33,556 nt of DNA, from the IMG/VR virus record IMGVR_UViG_3300032323_000644, positions 1 to 33,556 of that record; one strand, given 5' to 3'. The notes below the pieces were generated by a model. The model was not told the DNA's origin. It did no database searches and worked only from the letters and a program-made list of their open reading frames with translations. Of this stretch, positions 2,832 through 23,698 are shown piece by piece. The first letter of the stretch is position 1, and each line of letters starts with the position of its first letter. The stretch is from a virus. Made by a program: the position numbers and the translations under genes.

Positions 2832-4643
2832 ATGGCGTATCAAGTTGATAGATTTAATGGTACTTTTTTAGTAGCGGTAGAAGATGGAACTATCGATACA
2901 ACAACCGACATAAGATTTGTCGGTAAAAACTATGCTGGCTACGGTGAAGTACAGAACGAAAACTTCTTGCATCTGCTAGAAAATTTCGCAAATACATCAG
3001 CACCGCCGAAAGCTGTTACAGGACAGATTTGGTATGATAGCTCTACTAAAAAATTAAAATTCTACGATGGCACAAGATTTAAATTTGCCAGCGGTGCAGA
3101 ATACAGTGAATCAGCTCCTACTGGTTTAACTCCTGGTGATTTTTGGTTCGATGCTTCGTCTAATCAACTAAAAGCATGGAACGGAGCAGACTTTATATTG
3201 ATCGGACCAGAAGCTGCTCCTGAGTTCGGAGCATCGGCAGCGATCGGTCAAGTTGTACAAGACAATAATGGAAATCCTAGATCAATAGTTAAGTTTGTAG
3301 CAGGTGACACAACAATGGCCGTCACCAGTGCTGTAGAGTTTACACTGGGATCTGCTAATCCAATACCTGGATTTGCTAGAATTAAGAAGGGTATTACTTT
3401 AATCAATACCGATGGAACTACCGGTATTACTTCTACCAGCGGAGAACAATACTTCTGGGGAACAGCTTCCAATGCACTAAGACTCGGCGGAGAAACTGCT
3501 GATCAGTATATTAGAAAAAATGATTTGAGTTTTCCTCAGCTTGTTAGCTTTGTTGATTCGGGATTTTCTTTAGGTAACGACACAGATTTATTAGTATTTG
3601 TAGAATCCGAAGATCCTTTTTCAATCAATCCTTTGCGAGATGAAGATCAGGTAGTAGTATATCAATCTCAAGTTGGTCAACCTATTACTATAAGACAGCA
3701 GGTAAATGAAAATACCGCTATCAATATTCTAAAAATAAGATCAACAAATATCGAACCATCCGGAGATACACTATACAGCATCGGAACTGTTGATAAAAGA
3801 TTTAACGCAGTAAGAGCAGTCGATCTTTTTGGTAATGTAACAGGTAATGTAACAGGTAATGTAACAGGTTTCGTCAAAGGTAATGTTAGAGCTAGTGATG
3901 ATACAGTGGCATTTAACTCTGATACTAAAACATTCTTCGGAACGGTAGGATCTTCAAGTCAACGTTCGTTGGTCTATGGAGACTTGATTGGTGATGTGAC
4001 AGGATCTGCGACTTCTGCAGAAAAGTTAGGAACATATAATCCTAGCATAACAACTGCTCCGGAGACTGTTGTAGTTCGTGATACTTCTGGAAATATCAAT
4101 GCTACTAGCTTTTTGGGAACTGCTACCTTTGCTGATAGAATAAAAATTGTTGCCGACGGTGTTGTTGACAGTGATCTCAACTATAAATCTGCTAAGAGAG
4201 GACCGATCGCTAACTCAATAGCAGCTAGAACAGCTGACGGTGATCTATTTGCAAGATTATTTGACGGTACAGCCACAGCCGCTCGTTATGCTGACCTAGC
4301 AGAAAAATATCTACCAGATGCAGAATATGCAGTCGGAACGGTTATGGTAATAGGTGGCGAAAAAGAAGTGACAGCTAGCTCTTGGGGAGATCGTGCTATT
4401 GGTGTGATCAGTGAAAACCCAGCATTTATGATGAACAAGGATTTAGAAGGCGGTGTATACGTAGCTCTAAAAGGTCGTGTTCCTGTTAAAGTAATCGGGG
4501 CAGTTAGAAAAGGACAAAGATTAATAGCATCTAATGACGGTTGTGCCACCGCAGCAGTACCACATGCTAATGATGTATTTGCAGTGGCATTAGAAAGCAG
4601 TGACGAAACTGGCGTCAAAGTTATAGAAGCTGTTATACTATAA
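2832..4643 (+). CDS. Large tail fibre protein, paralogue of preceding gene (603 aa)
   Basis: The N-terminal ~130 residues match the preceding fibre (GYGEVQNENFLHLLENFAN, then GQIWYDSSTKKLKFYDG and GDFWFDASSNQLKAWNG). The last ~125 residues repeat its C-terminal domain (TATAARYADLAEKYLPDAEY). The middle differs and contains GNVTGNVTGNVTG encoded by a perfect 12-base tandem repeat. The pattern of shared ends and different centres fits a fibre pair that diversified in the shaft. Ribosome binding site GGAGCTG precedes the ATG. Virion structural role is inferred from these fibre modules. Confidence 0.85.
   Translation: MAYQVDRFNGTFLVAVEDGTIDTTTDIRFVGKNYAGYGEVQNENFLHLLENFANTSAPPKAVTGQIWYDSSTKKLKFYDGTRFKFASGAEYSESAPTGLTPGDFWFDASSNQLKAWNGADFILIGPEAAPEFGASAAIGQVVQDNNGNPRSIVKFVAGDTTMAVTSAVEFTLGSANPIPGFARIKKGITLINTDGTTGITSTSGEQYFWGTASNALRLGGETADQYIRKNDLSFPQLVSFVDSGFSLGNDTDLLVFVESEDPFSINPLRDEDQVVVYQSQVGQPITIRQQVNENTAINILKIRSTNIEPSGDTLYSIGTVDKRFNAVRAVDLFGNVTGNVTGNVTGFVKGNVRASDDTVAFNSDTKTFFGTVGSSSQRSLVYGDLIGDVTGSATSAEKLGTYNPSITTAPETVVVRDTSGNINATSFLGTATFADRIKIVADGVVDSDLNYKSAKRGPIANSIAARTADGDLFARLFDGTATAARYADLAEKYLPDAEYAVGTVMVIGGEKEVTASSWGDRAIGVISENPAFMMNKDLEGGVYVALKGRVPVKVIGAVRKGQRLIASNDGCATAAVPHANDVFAVALESSDETGVKVIEAVIL
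3831..3866 (+). repeat. Three perfect tandem copies of a 12-base unit inside the fibre gene
   Basis: GGTAATGTAACA occurs at 3831-3842, 3843-3854 and 3855-3866 without mismatch. It encodes Gly-Asn-Val-Thr three times. Because the unit is four codons, gain or loss of copies would lengthen or shorten the fibre shaft without a frameshift. Confidence 0.95.
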
Positions 4644-4653
4644 GGATATAAAA

Positions 4654-5583
4654 ATGGCAGGTGTAGGCGAAATAATTTCTGCGGTTGATTACAACGTTAT
4701 ACAGAACAAAATTTCTAGAATAATGGGAACCGGAGTTGCCACAGAAGGCTACGGTCAAACAGTTTCATCGGCACCTATTGTTCCAGATGGCATAACCGGG
4801 ATACTTCCTAATGTTTTAAAAAGCCAATGGGACTCTTTAAGATTCGACATTGTTAACGCTGTAGTACATCAAACCGGCAGTGCTCCAACCATAACAGTGA
4901 TACAGACAACAGATCCGATCAGATACGGACCGTCTCATCCAAACTTTCAATATAATACCATTGCGGATCAAGCAGTATCTCAAAGATTTTCTATAGGAAC
5001 CGGGCAGTTTGTTGTAGAGCAACCTATAGCACAGGCATCTAACATGTTTGTACAAAGAACCTCGTCGTGGTCAGCAAGTTTAACTACTGATCTTACTGTA
5101 ACTTTTTCCACAGTTGACAGAGCAAGATTCTTTTTTAACAGTGGTAGTAAGATTAGATTTAACAGCAATAGAACAGGCGGAGCGGGATCGGCTCAAAATA
5201 CAGCTTGGACGAATCTTTTAGATTCAGTAGGCACTGTAGACTTTGGCGGTTTCGCGCCCACAGTAAACTATTTCGCCCTTACAAATAGTTTCCAAACATT
5301 TTATCAATCAAGTGCAAGCTCACCTTATGCAGGAAATCAAATAACGATGCAGGCGAGATGTAATGTTTCGAATAACTCTGCAGGAACAGCCAATATCGTT
5401 TATTTTAGAGTAACTTTTACTGATACATATGTTGATCCAGGTGCACCTCCCCCGGGAGATACAGTTGACGGTACATTGTCGTTGACTGTCAACGAAGTTA
5501 GAGCAGCCGGATCGTTACTACCATCCGGTACTTTTAACATTATAGGACCATCATATTCAATAACTGCATTCAGCGGTGCATAA
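4654..5583 (+). CDS. Putative virion structural protein (309 aa), first of a tandem pair
   Basis: Not recognised by name. It shares its whole plan with the next gene: N-terminal DYNxIxNxIxxxMxTGxATxGYGQ, then W(D)xLRFDIVNAxVHQTGSxPxITV, then PNFQYxTxAxQAxxxRFxI, and a C-terminal half with RARFFFNSGSKIRF and ITMQARCNVSNNSAGTAN. It contains many short Ser/Thr/Gly beta-type segments and no obvious catalytic motif. It lies 10 bases after the fibre gene with AAGGATATAAAA before the ATG. Position and composition suggest a fibre- or baseplate-associated structural protein; this is inference. Confidence 0.7.
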   Translation: MAGVGEIISAVDYNVIQNKISRIMGTGVATEGYGQTVSSAPIVPDGITGILPNVLKSQWDSLRFDIVNAVVHQTGSAPTITVIQTTDPIRYGPSHPNFQYNTIADQAVSQRFSIGTGQFVVEQPIAQASNMFVQRTSSWSASLTTDLTVTFSTVDRARFFFNSGSKIRFNSNRTGGAGSAQNTAWTNLLDSVGTVDFGGFAPTVNYFALTNSFQTFYQSSASSPYAGNQITMQARCNVSNNSAGTANIVYFRVTFTDTYVDPGAPPPGDTVDGTLSLTVNEVRAAGSLLPSGTFNIIGPSYSITAFSGA

Positions 5584-5612: not shown

Positions 5613-6509
5613 ATGCCCGCTAATGATCTTGTACGAATTCCCGATTATAATGATATACGCAACACCATAGTTGCGGTTATGAGCACGGGTTCTGCGACTC
5701 AAGGCTATGGTCAAGCTGTTAATAGTGGGCCAGCAGCGACCGGAGACTTTATTTCCAAGGCCGAATGGGACAAGTTAAGATTTGATATAGTTAATGCCAT
5801 AGTGCATCAGACCGGATCAGTGCCGGCTATTACAGTGGTTAATGAAAATGAACTGGTTAGATACGATGCTGCCCAGCCAAATTTTCAATATCAAACTCTA
5901 GCTAATCAAGCCAATACTAACAGATTTGACATAGCTCTTGGACAGTATGTAGTAGAATCCAGAGGCAGTAGATCTGATAGCGTAAGTTTTTCTAACAGTG
6001 TTAGATCTAGCATTACAGTATCGTTCGTAACCGCAGATCAGGCTCGATACTTTTTTAACTCTGGCGGAAAAATAAGATTTTCTAGTGCGTTTACTTCATC
6101 GTTAGGAACGACTCAGAGCGGTGCCTGGACGACTTTGTTATCTAGTTTAGGAACGGTTAGTTTTGGAGGAAACACTCCGGCAGTTAATTTTTATAGTTTA
6201 ACGAGCTCAGATCAAACGTTTTACAGCCAAGGAACCAGCGGAACATATTCGATGAATAGATGGACATTACAGGCAAGATGTAATGTTGCTAATAACTCTT
6301 CAGGAACTGCTAATACTGTAACTATCACCTCTATTTGGCAGGATATATACACGGATCCAGGCGATCCTCCTCCTGGAGATTTGGTACAGGGAACAATGGC
6401 AATATCTGTCTCTCAACTTAGAGCACAAGGTGCTCTCTATCCAAATTTATTACCAGCATCTTTCAATACTCCTTCTCCCACAGTAACTATCGGCGCTATC
6501 GCTCCTTAA
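5613..6509 (+). CDS. Putative virion structural protein (298 aa), second of a tandem pair
   Basis: Paralogue of the preceding gene, alignable along almost the whole length: DYNDIRNTIVAVMSTGSATQGYGQ near the N-terminus in place of DYNVIQNKISRIMGTGVATEGYGQ, then KLRFDIVNAIVHQTGSVPAI, ARYFFNSGGKIRFSS and LQARCNVANNSSGTAN. The C-terminal halves also match (YTDPGDPPPGDLVQGT versus YVDPGAPPPGDTVDGT). The start follows CAAGGAAAAATA. It ends the structural block; the next gene is preceded by its own promoter-like site. Function unknown; a structural role is inferred from the neighbours. Confidence 0.7.
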   Translation: MPANDLVRIPDYNDIRNTIVAVMSTGSATQGYGQAVNSGPAATGDFISKAEWDKLRFDIVNAIVHQTGSVPAITVVNENELVRYDAAQPNFQYQTLANQANTNRFDIALGQYVVESRGSRSDSVSFSNSVRSSITVSFVTADQARYFFNSGGKIRFSSAFTSSLGTTQSGAWTTLLSSLGTVSFGGNTPAVNFYSLTSSDQTFYSQGTSGTYSMNRWTLQARCNVANNSSGTANTVTITSIWQDIYTDPGDPPPGDLVQGTMAISVSQLRAQGALYPNLLPASFNTPSPTVTIGAIAP

Positions 6510-6524: not shown

Positions 6525-6563
6525 TTTCTCCTAATAAATAAACTACTACTTTAATAGGAGAAA
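6525..6563 (+). promoter_or_regulatory. 9-bp perfect inverted repeat sequestering a ribosome binding site
   Basis: TTTCTCCTA (6525-6533) is exactly complementary to TAGGAGAAA (6555-6563), with a 21-base loop. The right arm holds the ribosome binding site TAGGAG of the gene starting at 6566. A transcript reading through from the fibre genes could fold and hide this site. A late transcript from the octamer at 6533-6540 would start near 6546 and lack the left arm, leaving the site free. T4 genes e, soc and 49 are known to use this arrangement. Folding and use are inferred. Confidence 0.6.
6533..6540 (+). promoter_or_regulatory. T4-type late promoter octamer AATAAATA
   Basis: Same octamer as at 2800. 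It begins on the last base of the left hairpin arm and lies 26 bases before the ATG at 6566. A start about 6 bases downstream of the octamer gives a ~20-base leader. It is the only promoter-like site seen in front of the 10-kb overlapping gene cassette that follows. Confidence 0.55.
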
Positions 6564-6565
6564 TC

Positions 6566-6916
6566 ATGAACGAGATGCTTAAGAAAGCTCTTGAGTTTTC
6601 TAACTTCAAACAATCCTTATCTATCCAAAGAAAAGTCCTGAAAGAAAAGTTAAACGCTAGATTAACTTTTGGTTATGAGGGCGGACTGTTTAAAATCGAT
6701 CAGACACTGATCTGCTTTATTAATTTCTTAATAAATGAAGGCAGAACAGTGAATGTTGTTATCGTTGATATGAATGAAAACCCAATTCTAATCAAAGATT
6801 TGAATATTTTTAAATCAGAAATTCTTGACAGATACTTTACTGCCGTAAACGAATCTTATATCGAATATGGAAAAATTAAAAAAAGCAGAACTGTTGACGC
6901 ATTGGTAGATCTATGA
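6566..6916 (+). CDS. Conserved hypothetical protein (116 aa), first gene of the glycosyltransferase/radical SAM cassette
   Basis: Mixed-charge soluble protein with no signal peptide or membrane segment. The N-terminus (MNEMLKKALEFSNFKQSLSIQRKVLKEKL) is probably helical, and the protein ends in a basic stretch (KIKKSRTVDALVDL). It resembles small proteins I recall from other T4-like marine phages, but no function is known to me. The start follows TAGGAGAAATC, which is buried in the 9-bp hairpin. The stop codon overlaps the start of the next gene (ATGA), so translation is probably coupled. Confidence 0.8.
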   Translation: MNEMLKKALEFSNFKQSLSIQRKVLKEKLNARLTFGYEGGLFKIDQTLICFINFLINEGRTVNVVIVDMNENPILIKDLNIFKSEILDRYFTAVNESYIEYGKIKKSRTVDALVDL

Positions 6917-7773
6917 ATCGAGGAATAGTCATTATTGCTCATAATAATCGAGATATTGATTATTCTCTAATGTCGATTATTTCTGGCGGCCTTGCCAAAA
7001 AATATTTAAATCTTCCTGTAAGTTTAATCACTGATCAATCTACAGTTGATTGGATGAAAACCTCAGGTACATTCGACAAGGCATCTCAAGTGTTTGAGAA
7101 TATCAAACTCATAGATCGACCCGTGTCCGATAACACAAGAAGATTAAATGATGGTCAAGAGTCCAAGACAGTACCATTCTTAAATTCTACAAGATCAAAA
7201 GTATGGGATCTTACTCCTTACGATGAAACGCTATTAATTGATTCTGATTATTTGATTTTTTCTGACTTATTAAATCAATATTGGCACTTGGCTGATAGTG
7301 TTTTGATCGGAAAAGCAATGAATGATGTTCAAGGTCAACGCATAGGTTTTCTTGATAAAAATGTTTCTGATGTTGGTGTGCATTTATATTGGGCAACAAC
7401 TGTAATGTTCAAGAAGAACGAAGAATCAAAAATATTTTTTGATCTTGTGAAACAAGTTGAAGAACATTATGATGTATTTGCAGACTTGTATAGATTCTCT
7501 TCTAAGCAGTTTAGAAACGACATAGCCTTCAGTGTAGCTAAACATATGTTAGACGGTTTCGAAACATCACTAACTCAATCCTTGCCAGATATACTAACAG
7601 TACAGGATAAGGATCTACTTTGCGAAGTTCGAGACGGCCGTCTTTACTTTATTATCAACGATGGTAATAATCCAGATGTTTATATTCCTTGCTCTATTAA
7701 GGATATGGATGTACACTTTATGAATAAACAAAATATTGTGAGGCAGAAAGACAAACTTATGGAGTTGCTATGA
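6913..7773 (+). CDS. GT8-like glycosyltransferase (286 aa)
   Basis: The N-terminus GIVIIAHNNRDIDYSL is a Rossmann-type start for a nucleotide-sugar binding domain. A DXD-type motif occurs as YDETLLIDSDYLIF (DSD around residue 112), preceded by the segment that in GT8-like enzymes places the metal and sugar nucleotide. It is related to the next gene, with the same order of motifs (N-terminal strand, LITDQ/LVTDD, then DXD). ATGA overlaps at both ends put it in the cassette operon. Predicted role: transfer of a sugar from a nucleotide donor; donor and acceptor are unknown. Confidence 0.65.
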   Translation: MNRGIVIIAHNNRDIDYSLMSIISGGLAKKYLNLPVSLITDQSTVDWMKTSGTFDKASQVFENIKLIDRPVSDNTRRLNDGQESKTVPFLNSTRSKVWDLTPYDETLLIDSDYLIFSDLLNQYWHLADSVLIGKAMNDVQGQRIGFLDKNVSDVGVHLYWATTVMFKKNEESKIFFDLVKQVEEHYDVFADLYRFSSKQFRNDIAFSVAKHMLDGFETSLTQSLPDILTVQDKDLLCEVRDGRLYFIINDGNNPDVYIPCSIKDMDVHFMNKQNIVRQKDKLMELL

Positions 7774-8609
7774 ACTTTGGATATCTAATAGTCGCTGCCA
7801 AAAATAAAGAAGTTGACTATAATAAGTTAGCTTATTCATTGGCTTTGAGCATTAAAAATACTCAAAAATACGGATACAACAACGTATGTCTAGTAACCGA
7901 CGATGTCGAATCTGTGCAAGATTTCAAATCTCCCTGGGTCTTTGATAAGATCGTTGGATGGAAGGAAGAAAAGGGTTGGGACGGACGTTCGTTCATGGAT
8001 CAACTAAGCCCGTTCGATTATACTGTATGTCTAGATGCAGACATGTTGTTTACTAGAGATATTAGTCATTGGATAGATTATTTTGTTGAAAATGTTGATC
8101 TATATGTTCCTTCTAAGTCCTATACTTATAGAGGCGAAGTTGTAACTGGGGATTTTTATAGAAAAGCATTTGTAAAAAATGACTTACCGAATCTTTATAG
8201 TTTTTTTACATTCTTTAGAAAAGATTCTAGATTAGTCAACGAGTTTTTTACACTAGGTCGATATATTATAAAAAATCCTGTAGAGTTTTCTAACACGTTC
8301 TTTCCTGATTTTAAACCTAAGATCTTAGGAACTGATGAAGCGTTTGGATTAGCTGCTAAGATTTTAGATATTTCTGATCAAATTTCGTTTCCGCTAGAGT
8401 TCCCGAAGATAGTTCACATGAAGCCCATGATTCAAAACTGGCCTTGGCCAGCTGACTGCTGGAGCGACCATGTAGGATTTTATTTCAATAAAGAAAATAA
8501 AATCAAAATAGGAAATCATTATCAGAGCGATATAATTCACTATGTTGAAAAAGACAAAATCACTGATGAGATTATTAGTTTACAGGAGGAAGTTCTATGG
8601 AAGAACTAG
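7770..8609 (+). CDS. GT8-like glycosyltransferase (279 aa), paralogue of preceding gene
   Basis: It begins FGYLIVAAKNKEVDYNKLAYSL, followed by NVCLVTDDVE and the DXD motif YTVCLDADMLFTRDI (DAD around residue 90). It has a later GTDEAFGLAAKI segment and VHMKPMIQNWPWP, which may form the acceptor side. It shares fold order and motifs with the gene before it, so the pair probably arose by duplication. Its last codons contain the AGGAGG ribosome binding site of the next gene, which starts 13 bases before this gene ends. Sugar and acceptor unknown. Confidence 0.7.
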   Translation: MNFGYLIVAAKNKEVDYNKLAYSLALSIKNTQKYGYNNVCLVTDDVESVQDFKSPWVFDKIVGWKEEKGWDGRSFMDQLSPFDYTVCLDADMLFTRDISHWIDYFVENVDLYVPSKSYTYRGEVVTGDFYRKAFVKNDLPNLYSFFTFFRKDSRLVNEFFTLGRYIIKNPVEFSNTFFPDFKPKILGTDEAFGLAAKILDISDQISFPLEFPKIVHMKPMIQNWPWPADCWSDHVGFYFNKENKIKIGNHYQSDIIHYVEKDKITDEIISLQEEVLWKN

Positions 8610-9214
8610 ACTTTGATGAGTGGGTAAAAAATTATAAACCTGTAACACCAAAATATTTTGCAAGATTTCAACCAGAAGACGGATCCATAGTAGGAATATA
8701 TCCAGAAACTGCACTAGGAGATCAATCTAATATCATAGAAATCGATGATGAAACAGCAATGTTAGTCTATGAAGGAAAACTTCAACTTTCATCATGCTTC
8801 ATTGATATTGATTCTGGAACTTTTCAAATAGCTGAAATCAAAGTATTAAACAAAATAGATGATGTGTTGCACAGAATCGTTGATAAACAATGGTCAAAAT
8901 TTGAAGAAGAGGAAGATGTTTTTGTTACGATGTTTTCCGAAGAAGGAAAAATGACCATAGAGTTATCTGAAAAATATAATGGAACTAGGTCTTCATCTAA
9001 AAAATCTAAAAGAAAAATTCATTGGGACGGATCAACAGTTATGACATTTTTAATAACTGATTATAACGATCCTAATGTTATATTTGATGTAGTTAAAATT
9101 AAAATAGACGACTTAATCGGTAAGTCAACGACATTACGGATTAAAAATGTTCCTAAAAAATTCAGTGTTTATACTAAACGATTATTTCCAAAATATATTT
9201 TAGAGGTCAAATGA
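8597..9214 (+). CDS. Hypothetical protein (205 aa) within the glycosyltransferase cassette
   Basis: I do not recognise it. It has an acidic N-terminal half (MEELDFDEWVKNYKP, then PEDGSIVGIYPETA) and a lysine-rich segment SSSKKSKRKIHW near residue 135. It is predicted to be soluble, with alternating beta strands and no catalytic signature that I can name. The start is well fixed: AGGAGG lies 8 bases before the ATG. It overlaps the next gene by 4 bases. Its place between transferases suggests an accessory or substrate role; this is speculation. Confidence 0.7.
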   Translation: MEELDFDEWVKNYKPVTPKYFARFQPEDGSIVGIYPETALGDQSNIIEIDDETAMLVYEGKLQLSSCFIDIDSGTFQIAEIKVLNKIDDVLHRIVDKQWSKFEEEEDVFVTMFSEEGKMTIELSEKYNGTRSSSKKSKRKIHWDGSTVMTFLITDYNDPNVIFDVVKIKIDDLIGKSTTLRIKNVPKKFSVYTKRLFPKYILEVK

Positions 9215-10128
9215 AAGTCATTGAGTTTGATGTTGTTTTTCTAAGTTATGATGAGCCAAACGCTGATCTTCATTATGCCGATCTGTGTAACAAGGTACCT
9301 TGGGCTAAACGTGTACATGGAGTTAAAGGTAGCGATCATGCACACAAAGCCGCAGCAGAAAAGTCGGAAACAGATTGGTTCATTACTGTAGATGCTGATA
9401 ATATTGTAGATCCTAAGTTCTTTAATATTGACTTGGATATGACTGATCCTAAGATTCAAGTCTACGGTTGGTGCGGTCGTAATGTCATCAATGGACTACG
9501 TTACGGCAATGGCGGATTAAAAATCTGGAAAAAAGATTTCGTCCTTAATATGAAAACTCATGAAAACTCAGACAGCGATCGAGGCCGGGTAGACTTTTGT
9601 TGGGAAGATGGTTATCGAAATTTTCCTCTGAGCTTCAGCGATAGCATTATCACAGGAAATCCATTCCAAGCATGGAGAGCAGGATTCCGCGAAGGTGTTA
9701 AAATGACTTTACTTGACGGTGTTAAAGTTCCTCCATTGGAAATACAACAACGGATATGGTGGCATAATATCCACAGACTGCGTATGTGGTCAACAGTTGG
9801 CGCCCACGAAGAAAACGGAATCTATGCAGTCTACGGTGCTAGACTAGGAACTTGGATGGCCAACTGTACAGATTGGAACTATGTAGATGTTAGAGATTTT
9901 GAGATTTTAAGAGATATCTGGAAACAGTACGGCAAGCCTTACGAGGAAGTCAAGGGCGATGGATTAGTTGAAGCTATAAAAGATCTCGGAGAAAAAATCA
10001 AGTTAGGCCTAGGATTACATTGGCCATATCTAGATGCTGCTCAGAGCAAGTATACTTTAGATTTATACAATGAAACTATGAATCTTAACGATACCTATTT
10101 CCGTATGCCGGTACCAACAAATGTATGA
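9211..10128 (+). CDS. DXD glycosyltransferase-like protein (305 aa)
   Basis: It starts FDVVFLSYDEPNADLHYADL, continues WAKRVHGVKGSDHAHKAAAE (residues 31-50) and then WFITVDADNIV with the metal-binding DAD at residues 61-63. This order fits a GT-A type transferase of the GT2-like kind. The next segment, INGLRYGNGGLKIWKKDF, and the NPFQAWRAGFREGVKM segment recur in the last domain of the 662-residue protein encoded next, so they are homologous. It has an ATGA overlap upstream and an 8-base overlap downstream. Donor and acceptor unknown. Confidence 0.7.
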   Translation: MKVIEFDVVFLSYDEPNADLHYADLCNKVPWAKRVHGVKGSDHAHKAAAEKSETDWFITVDADNIVDPKFFNIDLDMTDPKIQVYGWCGRNVINGLRYGNGGLKIWKKDFVLNMKTHENSDSDRGRVDFCWEDGYRNFPLSFSDSIITGNPFQAWRAGFREGVKMTLLDGVKVPPLEIQQRIWWHNIHRLRMWSTVGAHEENGIYAVYGARLGTWMANCTDWNYVDVRDFEILRDIWKQYGKPYEEVKGDGLVEAIKDLGEKIKLGLGLHWPYLDAAQSKYTLDLYNETMNLNDTYFRMPVPTNV

Positions 10129-12109
10129 TATTTTTTATGTATCTCAAAAGACAGGCGACGAGTTAGATTGGAAAAAAATAAAATCTAAATATTCGCATGC
10201 ACAACGTTTGCAGAATGTAGAAACTTTTGAAGATATAAGATCTAAATCATTTACAAAAATGTTTTGGGTTATCTGGGACGATATCGAAATAAACGAATCG
10301 TTCGATATAGCATCTTACCGAGCTACCAAATGGGACGATATGTATGTCCATGTTTTTAAAAACAAAGATCATTATGATGGTATTTGTTTGTTCCCAAAGG
10401 CATTAGACATATCTCAGAGAGAGTTTCGTCATAGATTTTTTACAGAAAAAAAAGAAATAGACATAGTAGCAAGTGTTCCAAAAAAATACAACATATATTC
10501 GCCAGAGTCTTATGACGACTATCTAAAAATCCAAGACGACCTGTTTTGGATAGTATGGCCAAATCTACACATAACAAACACAGAAATATTCGATACCTAC
10601 TTTGATTTTCATAATACCTATGATAGATCAGAAAATCATATTTTTAAAAATCTCTGTTACAAAAAAGAATCATTTATCAATGGTATAATACTTGCTAGCA
10701 AGAAGAAGCCTATCTCGAAAAGAGAGTTTGATATACGGTATATCATTGATAAAAAAGAACATGATATTATTATTTCTAAATGTAGATACCCTATAGTAAA
10801 AATACAGACCTACGATCAATATTTAGAAGCTGTTAAAACAGTCAATGATGATATGTTCTGGATTGTGTGGCCTAATATTGAGGTTGTAGATCAAACAATT
10901 TTTGATATCTATTTTGATCCTAGAGATGGTAAGTATGACCATGATAGATCAGAAAATCATATTTTTAAAAATCTCTGTTACGAAAAAGAATCTTTCGTTA
11001 ATGGAGTTATCCTGTGCAGTAAGAAAAAACCCATTTCAAAACGAGAGTTTGATATACGATATATCATCGATAAAAAAGAACATGATATTTTAGTCAGTAA
11101 GTCTCAATATCCAATAGTTGAAATAAACTCCTATGACGACTATCTATCAGCTTTAGAAAACACAACTGACGAAATGTTTTGGGCCGTTTATCCAGAAATA
11201 GAAGTTACAGATACTTCTGTGTACAACATATATTTTGATACTCGAGACGGCAAGTATGACTATGACAGGAATATCAATCATGTATTCTTGCATAAGTTCA
11301 AAGACAAAGAATATACTTACAATGGACTGATGCTAATGAGCAAGCAGGCCACGGTAGGAAAAAGAGAAATAGACTTTAGATATCTTATCAATAAAAAAGA
11401 ACAAGAAACAATAGCGTCTGAACACAGATTATATGATATAGTATTCATCAGTTATAATGAACCTAATGCAGATGAGAATTGGTCTAAACTTAAAGAAAAA
11501 TATCCTCTTGCTAAACGAGTACACGGAGTCAAAGGAATACATAAAGCTCACATAAAAGCTGCTGAAATGTGTTCTACTGAAATGATATGGGTAGTAGACG
11601 GCGATGCTGAAATAGTTGACGGATTTATTTTTGACCATGTTGTAACAAGATATGAAAGAAATGTAGTACATGTTTGGAGGAGCCAGAATCCTATCAACGG
11701 CTTAGTCTATGGCTATGGGGGAGTAAAGCTGTTACCTCGTCATCTAACATTAGCCATGGATGTAAACAGTACAGATATGACTACATCAATCAGTGATCAA
11801 TTTAAGGCCGTGGAAAAAGTTTCTAATATTACCGTTTTTAATACTGATCCTTTCAATACCTGGAAGTCAGCATTTAGAGAGTGCGCTAAACTTTCTGCTA
11901 AATTAATCAGTAGACAAAATGAAGATGAAACTAACGAACGATTAGCAGTATGGTGCAGTCAGGGTAAAGATAAGCAATACGGAGAATACGCGATTGCAGG
12001 GGCGATTGCCGGAAGAGATTTTGGTTTATCGTCTAAAGAAGATAAAACTCAACTAGCTAAAATCAATGACTTTGAATGGTTAAAAAAATATTTCGATGGA
12101 CTTCAATAG
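10121..12109 (+). CDS. 662-aa multi-repeat protein: four degenerate glycosyltransferase-like repeats plus one intact DXD domain
   Basis: The C-terminal domain (about 435-662) matches the preceding gene: YDIVFISYNEPNADENWSKL, KRVHGVKGIHKAH and WVVDGDAEIVDG with DGD at residues 493-495. The N-terminal 430 residues are four related units with cores WDDIEI (W52), WPNLHI (W146), WPNIEV (W250) and YPEIEV (Y357), each followed by a segment ending NGxxLxSKKxxxxKREFDxRYxIDKKE. These cores align with the DXD strand but have lost it. The N-terminus DIFYVSQKTGDELDWKKIKSKY also mirrors the start of the active domain. The repeats probably serve as a scaffold or in glycan binding rather than catalysis (inference). 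Confidence 0.75.
   Translation: MYDIFYVSQKTGDELDWKKIKSKYSHAQRLQNVETFEDIRSKSFTKMFWVIWDDIEINESFDIASYRATKWDDMYVHVFKNKDHYDGICLFPKALDISQREFRHRFFTEKKEIDIVASVPKKYNIYSPESYDDYLKIQDDLFWIVWPNLHITNTEIFDTYFDFHNTYDRSENHIFKNLCYKKESFINGIILASKKKPISKREFDIRYIIDKKEHDIIISKCRYPIVKIQTYDQYLEAVKTVNDDMFWIVWPNIEVVDQTIFDIYFDPRDGKYDHDRSENHIFKNLCYEKESFVNGVILCSKKKPISKREFDIRYIIDKKEHDILVSKSQYPIVEINSYDDYLSALENTTDEMFWAVYPEIEVTDTSVYNIYFDTRDGKYDYDRNINHVFLHKFKDKEYTYNGLMLMSKQATVGKREIDFRYLINKKEQETIASEHRLYDIVFISYNEPNADENWSKLKEKYPLAKRVHGVKGIHKAHIKAAEMCSTEMIWVVDGDAEIVDGFIFDHVVTRYERNVVHVWRSQNPINGLVYGYGGVKLLPRHLTLAMDVNSTDMTTSISDQFKAVEKVSNITVFNTDPFNTWKSAFRECAKLSAKLISRQNEDETNERLAVWCSQGKDKQYGEYAIAGAIAGRDFGLSSKEDKTQLAKINDFEWLKKYFDGLQ
10620..10660 (+). 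repeat. 41-base exact direct repeat, copy 1
   Basis: Identical to 10941-10981, 321 bases (107 codons) apart, and falls in equivalent positions of repeat units 2 and 3 of the 662-residue protein (DRSENHIFKNLCY). The perfect identity suggests recent duplication or gene conversion. Recombination between the copies would delete one unit in frame. Confidence 0.95.
10941..10981 (+). repeat. 41-base exact direct repeat, copy 2
   Basis: Second copy of the repeat at 10620-10660. The flanking bases differ at both ends, so the identity stops abruptly while protein similarity continues. Confidence 0.95.
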
Positions 12110-13517
12110 AAACATAAAAGGTAACGAGCTTAGAAAGATTGATGGAAAATATCAATCTCGATATTTGTTGGATGCCGAATTCGTAAAACAAGAACTCGAT
12201 AAGGTCGGAAAAGGATTTTGTCTAGCCAAATGGTTTAATGTTAGCATCCACATACCTACAGGTAGAACTCACAGTTGTTATCATCCAAGAAGCCATCACA
12301 TTCCTTTAGACGAAGTTAAGATTGATGTTAGTGCATTGCACAATACCAACTATAAAAAGCATCAACGAAAACTAATGATTGAAGATTTAAAACCGCAGGA
12401 ATGTAATTTTTGTTGGCAGATAGAAGATAGTGGAACACAACTAAGTGATCGTGCCTATAGAAGTAAAGATGTATGGGAACCTGGTATCATAGACGAAGCT
12501 ATAGAACTAGGGCATACCGGTAATGCTAAACCTAGATATGTCGAAGTAAACTTTAATCAAGCCTGTAACTTTAAATGTAGTTATTGTAGTCCACATCTAA
12601 GTACAGCATGGATGGACGAAATAAAAAAACAAGGTCCTTATCTATTGTCGGAGAGAATCCATAACGATATAACCTGGATTGAAAATGAGATTCCTATAGA
12701 TAACAGTTCGGATAATCCTTATCTTAAAGCCTTCTGGGAGTGGATGCCTGAAATATATCCCACTTTGCAAACATTTCGTATGACCGGCGGCGAACCGCTA
12801 ATGGATAAAAATACGTTTCGTATGTTCGACTATGTGAAAAATAATCCCAAGCCAGATCTCCATTTAGCCATTACCAGTAACTGCTGTCCCCCAGGAAATC
12901 AATGGCAGAAATTTATGGAAGGGTTGAATGACATAACTTCTGCCGATGCAATAGATCATTTTATGCTGTTCTGTAGTTTAGACAGTTGGGGCCCCCAGGC
13001 GGAATACATTCGAAACGGTATGGATTTTGAAGTATTAAAAAATAATGTAAAAGATTTTTTAGCTAACAGTCAACGACACAGTTTAACATTTATCATAACT
13101 TTTAACGCTCTAAGCTACGGAAAGATTTTAGAATATATACAGAATATCTTAAAGCTCAGAAGATCTTTTAGTAAAAAGCGTCAACTGATATGGTTTGATA
13201 TACCTCAACTGCACGATCCTGACTTTTTAAATCCTAAGCTGATTCCTGAAATGGTAGTGGAACTTGAAAAGACTATTAAGTTCATGAAGCAGAATAAAGA
13301 AGGGCGATGGAATCAGTTTATGGGTTTTAGTGATTTTGAAGTTAGCAAAGTTCAAAGATTAATAGACTGGATTAACGCAGACACAGGATTTGACAAGCAT
13401 AAGGCTATGAAAAACTTTTATTTGTTTTTCAGCCAGCACGATGAAAAAAGAGGAACTGATTTTTTAAAAACGTTTCCTGAGCTAAAAGATTTTTGGGAAA
13501 AATGCAAAAATGGATGA
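12096..13517 (+). CDS. Radical SAM protein with N-terminal twitch-type cysteines (473 aa)
   Basis: The radical SAM cluster motif CNFKCSYC is at residues 157-164 (C-x3-C-x2-C), and the SAM-binding TGGEP is at 231-234. Upstream lie four cysteines (C42, C61, C103, C106) in the contexts GFCLAKW, HSCYHP and ECNFCWQIED. These probably bind an auxiliary Fe-S cluster, as in the twitch-type radical SAM family whose auxiliary domain precedes the core. Such enzymes modify peptides or small molecules. It overlaps both neighbours (14 and 8 bases) and is followed by a paralogue. Substrate unknown; the neighbouring glycosyltransferases suggest a glycan or a surface protein. Confidence 0.8.
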   Translation: MDFNRNIKGNELRKIDGKYQSRYLLDAEFVKQELDKVGKGFCLAKWFNVSIHIPTGRTHSCYHPRSHHIPLDEVKIDVSALHNTNYKKHQRKLMIEDLKPQECNFCWQIEDSGTQLSDRAYRSKDVWEPGIIDEAIELGHTGNAKPRYVEVNFNQACNFKCSYCSPHLSTAWMDEIKKQGPYLLSERIHNDITWIENEIPIDNSSDNPYLKAFWEWMPEIYPTLQTFRMTGGEPLMDKNTFRMFDYVKNNPKPDLHLAITSNCCPPGNQWQKFMEGLNDITSADAIDHFMLFCSLDSWGPQAEYIRNGMDFEVLKNNVKDFLANSQRHSLTFIITFNALSYGKILEYIQNILKLRRSFSKKRQLIWFDIPQLHDPDFLNPKLIPEMVVELEKTIKFMKQNKEGRWNQFMGFSDFEVSKVQRLIDWINADTGFDKHKAMKNFYLFFSQHDEKRGTDFLKTFPELKDFWEKCKNG

Positions 13518-14865
13518 TAGAGTAGAATATATTAAAAATGTAAGAGACAGACTAAACAAGGTAGGTCCTGGTTTTTGTGCAATGAAATGGTTGCATCAAA
13601 CTTTGTACTTACATACCGGAGATAATCACAGTTGCTATCATCCTCGTCCGCACCACATTCCTTTAGACGAAATAAAAATAGATGCAAGTGCTCTACATAA
13701 CACTAAGTGGAAAAAACAGCAACGTAAAACTATGTTAGAAGGCGGTCGTCCGGAGGAATGTTACTATTGCTGGAATATTGAAGACCTGCCAGGAGAGCAT
13801 ATCAGTGATAGAATGATACACAGTAGCAGTGACTTTTCTGAACCGTTGATAGAAAAGCTAGCAGAGCTACCATGGGATGCTCCTATCAATCCTAGGTATT
13901 TAGAAGTTAGCTTTGGCAACGGCTGTAACTATCGTTGCGGATATTGCTGTCCACAGGCCAGTACCATGTGGATGGAAGAAATTAAAAAACATGGAAACTA
14001 TGATTTAACCTATAATCAATATGGTATTGAATTTTTAAAATCTGGAACTTATTACGGTCCTAAAGATGAAAACCCTTATATCGAAGCTTTCTGGCGTTGG
14101 TGGCCAAGTCTCCGTAAAGACCTACACACATTAAGAATCACAGGCGGTGAGCCCTTAATGAATCCTGGTGCTATGCAGTTCTTTGACCTATTAGAAGAAG
14201 AACCTGCTCCTCATCTAGAGATTACGTTAAACAGTAACCTTGGAGTGACTTTTGAAAGAGTTGACAGATTAATTTCCAGGGTAACTAGTTTAGTAAATCA
14301 AAAGAAGATACGCAAATTTAGTTTCTTTACCAGCATTGATAGTTGGGGAGAACAGGCTGAATACATGCGCACTGGTCTAAAGTGTGACCATTGGGAAAGA
14401 AATATGAAAGAGGTCATCAAAGCAGGCGCAACTGTAAATCTCATGTGTACCTACAACGTTCTTTGTGTAACTAACTTTCAAAGTTTATTGCATAAAGTTA
14501 TCGAATGGCGCAAAGAATATGGAATGGAAGCAGTAGCATTTGACACACCGTACCTGAAAGAACCCCCTCACTGGATGATCAATATTCTTCCGGAAGAATT
14601 TTTAAAATATCAGGAAGATACACTGACGTTTATCCAGGATAATCAACAATGGTTTACAGGTGTTGAGTATGAAAAGTTCAAACGTGTCACTGATTACATG
14701 AGAGAAAACCCAGTTAGTAAAGAAAAGATACATCAAGGTCGTAGAGATTTTTATAGTTTCTTTACTGAAAATGATCGTAGATTAGGAACTAATCTTTTAT
14801 TGACATTTCCAGAATATGAAGAGTTTTACAAAAGTTGTAAGGAAATTTATCTAAATGATAAATGA
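13510..14865 (+). CDS. Radical SAM protein with N-terminal twitch-type cysteines (451 aa), paralogue of preceding gene
   Basis: It has the same layout as the gene before it: C23, C42, C84 and C87 (GFCAMKW, HSCYHPRPHHIPLDE, ECYYCWNIED), then the radical SAM motif CNYRCGYC at residues 139-146 and TGGEP at 211-215. The segment HHIPLDE(I/V)KID(A/V)SALHNT is nearly identical in both proteins. Two such enzymes in a row suggest either two successive steps or a heterodimer. It overlaps the previous gene by 8 bases and the next by 11. Reaction and substrate unknown. Confidence 0.8.
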   Translation: MDDRVEYIKNVRDRLNKVGPGFCAMKWLHQTLYLHTGDNHSCYHPRPHHIPLDEIKIDASALHNTKWKKQQRKTMLEGGRPEECYYCWNIEDLPGEHISDRMIHSSSDFSEPLIEKLAELPWDAPINPRYLEVSFGNGCNYRCGYCCPQASTMWMEEIKKHGNYDLTYNQYGIEFLKSGTYYGPKDENPYIEAFWRWWPSLRKDLHTLRITGGEPLMNPGAMQFFDLLEEEPAPHLEITLNSNLGVTFERVDRLISRVTSLVNQKKIRKFSFFTSIDSWGEQAEYMRTGLKCDHWERNMKEVIKAGATVNLMCTYNVLCVTNFQSLLHKVIEWRKEYGMEAVAFDTPYLKEPPHWMINILPEEFLKYQEDTLTFIQDNQQWFTGVEYEKFKRVTDYMRENPVSKEKIHQGRRDFYSFFTENDRRLGTNLLLTFPEYEEFYKSCKEIYLNDK

Positions 14866-15688
14866 ATATTTGATCGCTGATTTTGAACATATATCTCTTA
14901 GATGGAAAATAAAATCTGATAAAGTTTCTCAGAAGTGGGCTTCGGCAGTTAATGAAGCGATAGAAAAACACAGTTCATCTATCAAGATACATGCAGATTG
15001 TTGGAATGATACTGAAACTGAATTTAATAATCATTACGATAATCTGATAGCGTCTATGATAGCACTTAAAAATAATATCGCTGATATGCCAGGACTACCA
15101 GGGAAAAAAAGTTTAAATCAGTACGCTTTGAATAATATACATAACTGGTTTGCAAAAAACGAGAAAACTCATGAGTTATTATCGAGTATGCATCATAGCA
15201 TACACAAACTTGAATCATGTTTTAGTAGATCTATATACTATCCTCCTATGATTCAAATTGGTTGGCCGAATACATCTAGATATGAATTCGACAAGGATGA
15301 TTATTTCTTGTTCTCTGAAACTAGAAAATTTGGCGGAATTGAGCTTACATATTCTCATATAGGCAAAGAACCTTTCGCTATATTTTCAAGTAAGGATGAT
15401 TTAACAGATGAAATTTTTGTACCATATACACACTATTCTGCAGATTTTTATCTATGGTTCGGAATGAATGAGTTCACAGGTAATAATGAAGAGTTTTGGA
15501 AATGGTTTGATAAAAATTACGAATGGTTTAAAAAAAGAACAGGATGGCTACCGAGAGATGTAAGAGCCAGGCCTGGCAGATATCAAGTAGCAGATCTTAT
15601 TCTAGAAGATCATGATAGTAAGGAAAATATATTATCTCTTATAAGAAAAAATCCCACAACCATAAAACTAAGGATTGAAACTAAATGA
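14855..15688 (+). CDS. Hypothetical protein (277 aa) between radical SAM and SGNH genes
   Basis: Not recognised. It is rich in aromatic residues and His (for example HHSIHKLE near residue 110, then YYPPMIQIGWPNTSRYEFDKDDYFLFSE broken into several strands, and WLPRDVRARPGRYQVADLIL near 230). There is no signal peptide or membrane segment. The compact, polar composition suggests a soluble enzyme or binding protein. It has an 11-base overlap with the radical SAM gene and an ATGA overlap with the hydrolase gene. Function cannot be called. Confidence 0.7.
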   Translation: MINEYLIADFEHISLRWKIKSDKVSQKWASAVNEAIEKHSSSIKIHADCWNDTETEFNNHYDNLIASMIALKNNIADMPGLPGKKSLNQYALNNIHNWFAKNEKTHELLSSMHHSIHKLESCFSRSIYYPPMIQIGWPNTSRYEFDKDDYFLFSETRKFGGIELTYSHIGKEPFAIFSSKDDLTDEIFVPYTHYSADFYLWFGMNEFTGNNEEFWKWFDKNYEWFKKRTGWLPRDVRARPGRYQVADLILEDHDSKENILSLIRKNPTTIKLRIETK

Positions 15689-16512
15689 GCTATAAACATA
15701 TTATTTGCAGCGGGGATAGTTATACAGCCGGACACGAGCTTGCCGCTGATACACTTATACCTAATTATTTCTCTTATAACGCACCTGTAAAAAAATTAAC
15801 TGATAACGAGAATGCAGAACGAAAAAAAATGCATGAGCAACTTACTAATTTAGAATCAAATCTTGCCGGTAAAATGAAAAATGATTATTGGGATTTAAGT
15901 AAGCAGCGTGCCTGGCCAGGAAAAATAAAAAATTTAACAAATCTCGATGTGAAAAATGTAGGACATAGAGGGATATCTAATCACGAAATATCTTACAGAG
16001 TTTTAGAAACAGCATTTCAATCCTTAGATGTCTACGAATCAAAAGATATTATATGTTTCATTATGTTATCGAATCCTGTCAGACTTGGAACTCCTTCTCA
16101 TAATATATGGGGTGGCGAATATGAATATCGATCACTTATTCCTTGGTTTAATATTAATAACATCGAACCGGAAAAAATGGCAGCATGGTTCAAAAGAATG
16201 TTAGAAGATTATGACGACTATGATTATCTACATGAATCATTTATCCATATACAGGCTGCAAAAAGCACCTTAACACAGCTAGGTATAAAAACTGTGATAC
16301 TCGATTCTGGTTTGTGGACAGAATTTGGAAAAGAATATTCGCATCCTATAAAACCAGATAGATTTGATAGATTTACAAAACTTTTAGATATTGAGTTAGA
16401 ATCTTTTTTTAAGGTAGGCTTCGAGATGAATTTTAAGAGACTGCCTGGCGGTCACATGGAAGAATCTCTGCACGATCTGTATGCAGAGATGATTATAAAA
16501 AAATTCTTATAA
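15685..16512 (+). CDS. SGNH/GDSL-type hydrolase-like protein (275 aa)
   Basis: The N-terminus IICSGDSYTAGHEL carries the block I GDS motif with the putative nucleophile Ser at residue 10. An Asn-containing block follows (KNVGHRGISNHEISYRV, about residues 91-107). The C-terminal PGGHMEESLHDLYAEMI could supply the His of the triad. In surface-glycan clusters SGNH proteins commonly add or remove acyl groups; whether this one is an esterase or acyltransferase cannot be told. It is the last gene of the + strand cassette, and its Leu-stop codons TTA TAA are shared with the opposing gene. Confidence 0.65.
   Translation: MSYKHIICSGDSYTAGHELAADTLIPNYFSYNAPVKKLTDNENAERKKMHEQLTNLESNLAGKMKNDYWDLSKQRAWPGKIKNLTNLDVKNVGHRGISNHEISYRVLETAFQSLDVYESKDIICFIMLSNPVRLGTPSHNIWGGEYEYRSLIPWFNINNIEPEKMAAWFKRMLEDYDDYDYLHESFIHIQAAKSTLTQLGIKTVILDSGLWTEFGKEYSHPIKPDRFDRFTKLLDIELESFFKVGFEMNFKRLPGGHMEESLHDLYAEMIIKKFL
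16507..16512. other. Palindromic TTATAA giving the stop codons of two convergent genes
   Basis: Read on either strand, TTATAA ends a gene with Leu-stop (TTA TAA): the + strand hydrolase ends at 16512 and the - strand gene ends at 16507. The two operons therefore overlap by six bases with no intergenic spacer, and no GC-rich stem with a T-tract is seen at the junction. Confidence 0.9.
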
Positions 16513-20445: not shown

Positions 20446-20879
20446 GTATTATTTCTTTTCACTGTTTTTATGTCAATAACACCGGTATTCACTGGTTGAT
20501 TGATTCCTTCGTCCATTACTACATTAGCACAGAGTTCTCTGAACCAACGATCGACGATCTCCTCATCTTTGTCACCATCGAAACCGTACCCTTCTTGCTT
20601 TAATTGTACTATAAAATGCTCGTTCCAGTCAAGTTCAAAAAAACCATTTTTGATATTATCTTTGTTAACATGAGTATTCAAAACAGAAACCCATGGCTCC
20701 TTCTTTCGTGTAGCACGTTCTTTTGGAGTCAGTTTTGCCAATTCGGCCTGTTCTTCAACTTCCTTTAAGGCTTTCTCAACTTCTTCTTTTTTAGCCTGTG
20801 CTTCGGCTAATATCTTTCTAGTCTCTTCGATATTGGATTCTAGTTTATCTAATCCAAACAACTTTTTGATCAGTTTCAT
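20442..20879 (-). CDS. Conserved hypothetical protein with N-terminal coiled coil (145 aa)
   Basis: The first ~70 residues are a strongly charged helix (KLESNIEETRKILAEAQAKK and so on). The C-terminal part is a small domain with WVSVLNTHVNKDNIKNGFFE, LDWNEHFI and VDRWFRELCANVV. I take the ATG at 20879, which overlaps the queE stop codon (TAATG); the GTG at 20891 would add four residues. It lies between queE and the RNase H gene. Function unknown; conserved position near replication genes suggests a phage core protein. Confidence 0.75.
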   Translation of the reverse strand: MKLIKKLFGLDKLESNIEETRKILAEAQAKKEEVEKALKEVEEQAELAKLTPKERATRKKEPWVSVLNTHVNKDNIKNGFFELDWNEHFIVQLKQEGYGFDGDKDEEIVDRWFRELCANVVMDEGINQPVNTGVIDIKTVKRNNT

Positions 20880-21742
20880 TAAGTTCCCCACTCATTCTTA
20901 AATAATGGCACTTGCAGTCGATCACTGTAACGAAGACCATTCTTCATAGCGAACTCTGCAACACGGCGATTATTTAGTGTATAAACACTTTCAACTCCGC
21001 CCACGGGCATTAAGTAGCACGGACCTTCAAAACCTTCTGCGCGATAAATGTCTAAAGTTTCGATAGCTTCTTCAGCATCTTCTTCTGTAGCAATAACGAA
21101 CTTAAGATATGTGTAACCGATCTCTTGATATTCGCAAACAATATCTGGACGTATAGCTTCGTGCCTTTCTTCACCAGAACAACTTAGTTTAGCACTAACT
21201 GAAAACGTTAATGCATCATAGCTTCTTCGACCTCGTCGAGGATTCAATGTCCAATCTAGAAGATAATGTCTAAATTCTTTTGAGATGTTTTGAGTACCGT
21301 TAGTTTCAAATGTAATCTCTTTTAGATTCTGCATCTTGGGATGGTCTAACAGTTCGGGATAAGCACGTTGCCAACCGAGCAACGGTTCTCCTCCTGTAAT
21401 AACGAGATGTTCGCTTCTCCATTCATTGAACGGTAAAATCTCGCAGATTCTTTCTGCGATGGCGTCGCTAGTAAGCATTGGACTAAGATCCTTAAAACGA
21501 GGATCCCAGCTAGCGTAACTATCACAACCAGTAGATACCAATGGGAGTTCTTCATACTTCTTAAACTCTCCTACTTTTTCAGCGATAGCTTCAACCTCTG
21601 TGCTTAGTTCGCCTTTAGGCATACCAAAGCCAGCACATTTAAAGTTACAACCGAATGTACGTAAAAACACAGAAGGAACACCCATGTAGCGTCCTTCACC
21701 TTGAATGCTGTAAAACAGCTCTGCGATTTTAATTTTGCTCAT
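20879..21742 (-). CDS. queE: 7-carboxy-7-deazaguanine synthase QueE-like radical SAM enzyme (287 aa)
   Basis: QueE converts 6-carboxytetrahydropterin to 7-carboxy-7-deazaguanine. The start AELFYSIQGEGRYMGVPSVF is typical of the family, and GGEPLLGW, which binds SAM, is seen later. The three cluster cysteines are C32 and C36 (GCNFKC) and, after a 36-residue insertion, C73 in STGCDSYASWD, which matches the CDS..WD that normally follows two residues after the second Cys. The insertion enlarges the cluster loop. Other pathway genes (FolE, QueD-like, DpdA-like) lie on the same strand within 12 kb. Identity is firm; activity is inferred. Confidence 0.85.
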   Translation of the reverse strand: MSKIKIAELFYSIQGEGRYMGVPSVFLRTFGCNFKCAGFGMPKGELSTEVEAIAEKVGEFKKYEELPLVSTGCDSYASWDPRFKDLSPMLTSDAIAERICEILPFNEWRSEHLVITGGEPLLGWQRAYPELLDHPKMQNLKEITFETNGTQNISKEFRHYLLDWTLNPRRGRRSYDALTFSVSAKLSCSGEERHEAIRPDIVCEYQEIGYTYLKFVIATEEDAEEAIETLDIYRAEGFEGPCYLMPVGGVESVYTLNNRRVAEFAMKNGLRYSDRLQVPLFKNEWGT

Positions 21743-23696: not shown

Positions 23697-23698
23697 AC

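Follow-up and report, generated by a model that had tools for sequence, protein, structure and literature searches.

Fibre-linked glycosyltransferase genes with an optional radical SAM extension in uncultivated T4-like jumbo phages: a candidate system for virion glycosylation

We analyzed a 33,556-base IMG/VR virus record (IMGVR_UViG_3300032323_000644), referred to in its full length as the window, and focus here on a cassette of ten open reading frames (ORFs; g1 to g10) on its plus strand at positions 6566-16512. All successive ORFs of this cassette overlap (by 4, 4, 13, 4, 8, 14, 8, 11, and 4 bases from g1 to g10), and the next genes located 3' of it are on the minus strand. Our main finding is that the upstream fibre genes and g1 to g5 form a fixed unit, that genes for radical S-adenosylmethionine (SAM) enzymes are a frequent extension of this unit, and that genes for SGNH proteins, g9, and others make up a swappable tail. 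The best reading of this arrangement, to which we assign about an even chance, is glycosylation of the virion fibres with a sugar tailored by radical SAM enzymes. As judged from an order that is conserved across highly diverged relatives, the gene block is not due to chance. A previous inspection of the same DNA, made from its letters alone (the sequence-only reading), had described ten genes with 4-14 base overlaps, four transferase-type proteins (g2, g3, g5, and g6), and two N-terminal-twitch radical SAM paralogues. All of these ORFs were found at the positions given for them; the transferases are supported by glycogenin profiles (g3 and, weakly, g2), a predicted fold (g5), and homology to g5 (g6), and the radical SAM pair by family scores above the cut-off and by retained cysteines.

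Conservation of gene order among related viruses

Relatives were collected from IMG/VR with three queries (radical SAM 1, g5, and g3), each of which gave at least 580-592 confirmed relatives, and at most 80 loci were analyzed per search. ORFs were called with a simple script, the family hidden Markov models were built on the very loci analyzed, and many of the contigs are fragments. The radical SAM 1 search yielded at least 580 confirmed relatives; in the 80 loci examined, the prevalent order was fibre family F9, fibre family F3, g1, g2, g3, g4, g5, g6, radical SAM 1, radical SAM 2, and a variable tail. This tail holds additional radical SAM genes, some of them from a second, SPASM-type family, as well as SGNH genes of several unrelated families and other genes; it is terminated by a convergent conserved block. 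Since this first sample had been selected by a radical SAM enzyme, the search was repeated with g5 and g3. Of the 52 g5-query loci of at least 15 kilobases (kb), 48 carried twitch radical SAM genes, 49 carried F9, and 51 carried F3; among the 45 g3-query loci of this length, the numbers were 45, 43, and 44, respectively.

A query with F3 only provided 49 loci that extend 7.5 kb or more downstream. The genes g1, g2, and g3 were each detected in 46 of these loci, g5 in 47, and g4 in 42, while a radical SAM gene of any kind was present in 32 and absent from 17. Several loci stop after g5 and a g6-like gene, with no radical SAM gene on the plus strand, and methyltransferase-like, SGNH, g9, g10, and extra radical SAM genes vary freely between loci. 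The 17 loci devoid of radical SAM genes, together with the variability of the tail, therefore indicate a fixed core plus an optional tail and not an indivisible pathway. Hence, the earlier suggestion of one cassette stands for the fibre/g1-g5 core and fails for the optional radical SAM genes and the swappable tail. The sequence-only reading had also stated that finding these genes separately and in unrelated places would speak against it; with independent queries, g1 to g5 proved inseparable from the fibre genes. Linkage of glycosyltransferases to virion genes, as expected of a phage system for virion glycosylation, was observed in 46-47 of the 49 F3-query loci.

Two variations of this theme did not withstand scrutiny. 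Apparent introns or inserts in radical SAM 1 (spans of 1.7-2.1 kb in loci L066, L067, L070, L096, and L098) are accounted for by the second radical SAM gene, located at the end of the contig. A scheme in which short fibres go with the cassette and long fibres lack it, derived from L336 and L381, was rejected because most long F3 fibres carry the cassette too. In these two loci (L336, 2301-17707; L381, 4095-6921), F3 fibre genes occur without the cassette and are followed by a pair of genes for proteins of about 105 and 203 amino acids; the former belongs to the XkdW family in L336, which also encodes two giant F3 proteins of 2205 and 2568 amino acids. An assignment of the 203-amino-acid proteins as 2-oxoglutarate-dependent oxygenases was dropped, as Pfam and NCBIfam support was absent.

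The glycosyltransferase core

The first gene of the cassette, g1 (6566-6916), encodes a conserved protein of 116 amino acids that had no match in family searches. It is followed by two genes for GT8/glycogenin-like glycosyltransferases, g2 (6913-7773; IDSD motif) and g3 (7770-8609; LDADM motif), for which a Pfam search gave no match. In profile comparisons with glycogenin structures of the PDB, the similarity of g2 was weak (E 0.2) and that of g3 more pronounced (E 6e-4); the DxD motif of g2 is kept in 204 of 209 homologues, and the DxDM pattern of g3 in 186 of 213. The g4 gene (8597-9214) codes for a fast-evolving protein of 205 amino acids, whose ratio of non-synonymous to synonymous substitutions (dN/dS) exceeds that of the other cassette genes in the majority of close pairs. 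AlphaFold comparison of proteins without matches had been proposed in the sequence-only reading and was carried out for g4: the AlphaFold2 model (pLDDT 86) consists mostly of strands, and a structure search against the PDB gave no confident match. The all-beta g4 protein could possibly serve in acceptor recognition or be a part of the virion.

The strongly conserved g5 protein (9211-10128; VDADN motif) had no match in sequence-level searches, and its AlphaFold2 model (pLDDT 87, pTM 0.86) matches GT-A enzymes. Top-ranking in the PDB was the capsid glycosyltransferase of virus PBCV-1 (2p6w; E 3e-6, probability 1.00), the peptide S-glycosyltransferases SunS and ThuS also ranked high, and matches in the viral library include the Che8 glycosyltransferase. 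Since g5 carries an additional helical C-terminal part, its TM-scores to the PBCV-1 enzyme are low (0.24-0.29 on the query, at 16-22% identity), and the match therefore supports membership in a fold class, not in a family; the model thus places g5 among proteins with a predicted GT-A fold. The DxD motif is retained in all 254 homologues, and with pairwise dN/dS values of 0.02-0.08, g5 is under purifying selection, although dS is frequently saturated in distant pairs. The neighboring g6 gene (10121-12109) encodes four degenerate repeats of about 105 amino acids, identified by repeat alignment, and a C-terminal g5-like glycosyltransferase domain (VDGDA motif). Three of the four repeats have lost the acidic motif, the C-terminal domain is intact with DGD, and the homologues of g6 range from 339 to 1103 amino acids in length.

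The radical SAM pair and the variable tail

The two N-terminal-twitch radical SAM enzymes, g7 (12096-13517) and g8 (13510-14865), scored 309.6 and 304.3 bits against NCBIfam family NF033640 (N_Twi_rSAM), the curated cut-off of which is 170 bits, and these scores mark both as clear members. They are paralogues with about 37% identity, they possess the CX3CX2C motif at residues 157 and 139, respectively, and the twitch cysteines in the N-terminal part are intact (C..CW and HSCY). Each of 471 twitch radical SAM homologues retains the CX3CX2C motif. g7 and g8 resemble other NF033640 proteins by membership, while the family itself is without an assigned function.

Both genes of the variable tail differ from the core in their distribution. 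The g9 protein (14855-15688) has a family of two among near-relative loci and gave no match in family searches. g10 (15685-16512) was described in the sequence-only reading as an SGNH protein. An SGNH-like hydrolase or acyl-handling protein is plausible and not proven: the GDSY, G/N, and H columns are in place, and the profile comparison with SGNH thioesterase structures was not significant (E 0.17). In relatives, g10 is replaced by other SGNH families. A second overlapping SGNH-like pair is located outside the cassette (window positions 22303-22896 and 22872-23705, both minus strand), and single proteins that seemingly combine a glycosyltransferase-like N-terminal with an SGNH-like C-terminal part are encoded at L081 (15248-16816) and L044 (15227-16819). 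A methyltransferase-like family appears to be common to the phage tail region (L065, 16558-17322) and a Bdellovibrionia unit (L305, 13708-14376), a similarity that was judged by eye and has no Pfam match.

Fibre genes and promoters upstream of the cassette

Four plus-strand genes precede the cassette. The f1 gene (670-2793) codes for an F9-like tail-fibre or virion structural protein of 707 amino acids that matches the PHROG families for tail fiber (E 1e-18) and virion structural proteins, and this type of fibre gene is conserved 5' of the cassette among relatives. The product of f2 (2832-4643; 603 amino acids) belongs to fibre family F9, has PHROG matches to virion structural and tail fiber proteins, and matches a protein that is annotated as virion structural in jumbo phages of the PA5oct type. 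f3 (4654-5583; 309 amino acids) and f4 (5613-6509; 298 amino acids; about 50% identity to f3) are paralogues of family F3 and likely acceptor candidates. f3 had no match in the family databases searched; it is named a fibre protein because of its position after F9 and because its variants in relatives reach 2568 amino acids. An F3 gene of the f4 type is conserved immediately 5' of g1 in relatives.

Within the 56-base gap 5' of g1 lies the element AATAAATA (6533-6540, plus strand), which resembles T4-type late promoters. The gaps inside the block have a median of -4 to -8 bases up to g5, and the gap between F3 and g1 has a median of 59 bases. We compared 128 distinct F3-g1 gaps with shuffled sequences, calling a promoter sigma70-like when at least 10 of 12 positions matched. 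Late-like motifs were present in 44 of the 128 gaps (15.8 in shuffles) and sigma70-like promoters in 78 (3.2 in shuffles), a relation that was reversed in the F3-F3 gaps (late-like in 42 of 59, sigma70-like in 7 of 59). The presence of an F3-g1 gap with promoters of its own therefore suggests that the cassette is a separate transcription unit. A late promoter, as claimed in the sequence-only reading, is found in the window and its near relatives, but the wider group is mostly sigma70-like; the argument is thus valid for a part of the group only, and the notion of a strictly late operon was not upheld. An Rfam search returned nothing.

Virus lineage

The gene for gp23, the T4 capsid protein, was found in five of the ten larger records, and those in which it is absent may be fragments. 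In the related locus L045, the capsid protein has 67-72% identity to its counterparts in the jumbo phages Phosso, Vibrio phage 2.275, PA5oct, and GAP32. By these sequence comparisons, the cassette is carried by T4-like jumbo phages that are uncultivated and have Phosso, PA5oct, and GAP32 as relatives. Each of the large related records has 4-14 twitch radical SAM genes. Relatives of the block are present on hundreds of uncultivated large phage contigs and in no isolate of the collection searched: among its 50,697 records, g1, g2, g3, g5, g6, and F3 were all unmatched, and distant Vibrio radical SAM proteins were the only matches.

Counterparts in Bdellovibrionia

Homologues of g5 are also found in bacteria. 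We searched 144 genomes in the class of the Bdellovibrionia genome G008, the bacterial genomes being mostly metagenome-assembled genomes (MAGs), and detected a g5 homologue in 11 of them. NF033640 proteins were encoded in all nine g5-positive genomes tested as well as in G008 and G011, and in none of the 19 listed genomes of the same class that lack g5. A twitch radical SAM gene comes after two adjacent g5-type genes, directly in L303, L305, and L312, and with one intervening gene in L306; this order mirrors that of the phage genes g5, g6, and g7. A shorter g5-type gene adjoins a twitch enzyme in L308 and L309. L303 is part of a 494-kb contig and the G008 arrays of a 937-kb contig, both among ordinary chromosomal genes, which makes stray phage contigs an unlikely explanation. 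Some of the bacterial arrays contain an SGNH-like gene, a B12 radical SAM gene, a carbamoyltransferase gene, and a gene for a QueC/PP-loop-type protein. In a Bdellovibrio MAG (L013, 8686-13505), a twitch radical SAM gene encoding a double protein of 834 amino acids is located between two flagellin genes.

In a tree of the radical SAM proteins, seven of eight bacterial proteins adjacent to g5-type proteins group with other phage copies and not with the "first" phage copy, with weak support values. The tree shows mixing, and a shared ancestry of the entire unit in bacteria and phages is not supported by it; partners seem to have been exchanged. The bacterial examples thus show that the pairing of a g5-type glycosyltransferase with a twitch radical SAM enzyme is broader than the phage cassette.

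Further loci illustrate the diversity of the NF033640 family in these bacteria. G008 and G011 harbor large radical SAM arrays (L277, L278, and L284), where NF033640 matches numbered 22 and 37 per genome, some of them below the cut-off; the arrays include SPASM-type, B12 radical SAM, carbamoyltransferase, and PP-loop-type genes. In L021 (1552-3000 and 10743-12065), twitch radical SAM genes are found a few kb from a gene for a YcaO/SagD-type protein, and in L016 (8557-8844) a PqqD gene adjoins a twitch radical SAM gene. These neighbors point to a possible use of the twitch family in bacteria that is similar to that in ribosomally synthesized and post-translationally modified peptide (RiPP) pathways.

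Proposed function and competing explanations

Modification of the fibres is favored because the linkage to fibre genes is near-absolute, membrane components are lacking, the closest fold relative of g5 acts in virion glycosylation, and a bacterial member neighbors flagellin genes. In the proposed mechanism, g2, g3, g5, and g6 would act as soluble cytoplasmic glycosyltransferases that draw on the nucleotide sugars of the host and build a short glycan on the neighboring F3 and/or F9 fibre proteins, with the all-beta g4 protein and the g6 repeats possibly aiding acceptor recognition. g7 and g8 might then alter the sugar or the attachment residue by radical chemistry (e.g., deoxygenation, epimerization, dehydrogenation, or C-methylation). 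Acyl groups might be added or removed by the SGNH protein, and exchange of the swappable tail would change the outer chemistry of the fibre. The acceptor, the sugar, the radical SAM reaction, and the benefit to the phage are inferred. Several points weigh against this proposal. Neither an acceptor nor a product has been observed; the fixed synteny may stem in part from common descent of the virus clade; a glycosyltransferase-glycosyltransferase-radical SAM unit is also present in bacterial chromosomes, where no fibre gene accompanies it; the sigma70-like promoter found in most of the wider relatives argues against strict co-expression with the late fibre genes; and GT8 enzymes, which g2 and g3 resemble, have been linked to lipopolysaccharide (LPS) by others (PMC7029224).

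The sequence-only reading had left the choice between virion fibres and a surface glycan as the target, and the latter is the main rival of fibre glycosylation, although on balance we consider it unlikely. The enzymes would in this case act on cytoplasmic LPS or capsule precursors, and the altered host surface would block superinfection or change the receptor. Such a role has been put forward for the glycosyltransferases of pelagimyophage islands (PMC7029224) and would be in keeping with the sigma70-like, and hence probably early, promoter of most relatives, and with bacterial counterparts that are accompanied by sugar-pathway genes (carbamoyltransferase, SIS-domain isomerase, PfkB-type kinase) or are near polysaccharide ABC transporters, as identified by sequence reading. 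However, the block is devoid of membrane proteins, flippases, and lipid-carrier enzymes, it is fixed behind fibre genes and not in an early region, and the tandem units of L303 and L305 reside among housekeeping genes without LPS genes. Lysogenic O-antigen conversion of the gtrABC type involves the membrane genes GtrA/GtrC, and membrane-like segments are absent from all cassette proteins (maximum 19-residue Kyte-Doolittle value of 1.43). It is improbable, in our view, that the radical SAM enzymes act directly on amino acids of a fibre or another protein (by RiPP-like crosslinking or methylation) while the glycosyltransferases serve a separate purpose. Twitch/SPASM enzymes do frequently use peptide substrates, and bacterial members are found near PqqD (L016), near a YcaO/SagD-type protein (L021), and in one case between flagellins, yet the close association with g5 in phages as well as bacteria favors a sugar-related substrate and the phage block offers neither a precursor peptide nor a PqqD-like partner; among window ORFs of at least 60 amino acids, no PqqD or short precursor, as expected of a RiPP cluster, was found.

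Two further explanations appear very improbable to us. Hypermodification of the phage DNA by the glycosyltransferases, coupled to 7-deazaguanine genes, would draw on the QueE, FolE, and TGT-like genes on the minus strand of the window, and DNA is a possible target of phage glycosyltransferases; these genes are, however, encoded on the opposite strand at a distance of 4-17 kb, the block has its linkage with the fibre genes and not with them, and the nearest folds of g5 are capsid, peptide, and polysaccharide transferases. Likewise, there is very little probability that a free small molecule (a sugar-derived metabolite or signal) is made during infection: some bacterial arrays do look like biosynthetic clusters, with their B12 radical SAM, carbamoyltransferase, and QueC/PP-loop-type proteins, but this would leave both the fixed fibre-linked place and the minimal variants without radical SAM genes unexplained.

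Apart from these rivals, we tentatively propose, as a rather doubtful extension of fibre glycosylation, that jumbo T4-like phages and Bdellovibrionia, as relatives of predatory bacteria, share a mobile glycosyltransferase-glycosyltransferase-twitch radical SAM unit that places a radically tailored glycan on extracellular filaments (fibres in the phages; flagella or others in the bacteria). If true, such a unit would represent a novel type of post-translational surface chemistry. Fibre glycosylation as proposed for the phages would itself represent a form of virion glycosylation in which the sugar is tailored by radical chemistry, and NF033640, which reaches dozens of copies in certain genomes of Bdellovibrionia, would gain a testable partner (the g5-type glycosyltransferase) and a substrate class.

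Other features of the window

A QueE-like gene (20879-21742), a GTP cyclohydrolase I gene (26404-27243), and a third gene (31647-33182) are located on the minus strand. The third was considered as DpdA/TGT; family and PDB searches gave no match, and it is a lead only. Modification of DNA with 7-deazaguanine is possible in this virus. A gene for tRNA-Lys (TTT; 25427-25504, plus strand) lies inside a minus-strand ORF (25096-25560), and a glycosyltransferase-like protein of 354 amino acids (27279-28343, minus strand) had no match in a glycosyltransferase family search.

Comparison with known systems

In the open-access literature searched, with subscription papers largely outside its range, we found neither a fixed fibre-linked core with an optional radical SAM extension nor the pairing of g5-type glycosyltransferases with twitch radical SAM enzymes in phages or Bdellovibrionia. 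The earlier statement that no such phage system has been described was nearly right, as GT8, radical SAM, and fibre genes have been described together, albeit without the fixed module. Such mixtures occur in the host recognition cluster of pelagimyophages, a hypervariable, non-syntenic island of T4-like phages that combines tail fibres with GT8 glycosyltransferases and radical SAM cassettes (PMC7029224, mSystems 2020), the authors of which favor modification of host-surface glycans for comparable islands. The two systems are alike in T4-like phage background, tail fibres, GT8, and radical SAM genes. They differ in that the genes g1 to g5 have a fixed order behind defined fibre families, and probably in lineage: the pelagimyophage cluster is situated between VrlC and gp14 in T4-like phages of SAR11, whereas the capsid protein of L045 is nearest to the PA5oct/GAP32/Phosso type. 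An environmental T4-like genome encodes 12 radical SAM proteins, discussed as Fe-S proteins (PMC5332604, mSphere 2017), and likewise comes from an uncultivated phage rich in such genes; the passages on these genes do not link them to fibre genes or glycosyltransferases.

We know of no radical SAM partners in the virion glycosylation of mycobacteriophages. In these phages, according to the account given in PMC12619734, phage-encoded glycosyltransferases decorate capsid and tail proteins (Freeman et al., 2023); core glycosyltransferases are also known in aquatic jumbo phages (PMC12619734). The cassette proteins share only the general GT-A fold with the enzyme of mycobacteriophage Che8. Closest to the predicted fold of g5 is the capsid glycosyltransferase of PBCV-1 (2p6w, 2p72, and 2p73), which offers the further parallel of a viral enzyme acting on a virion protein.

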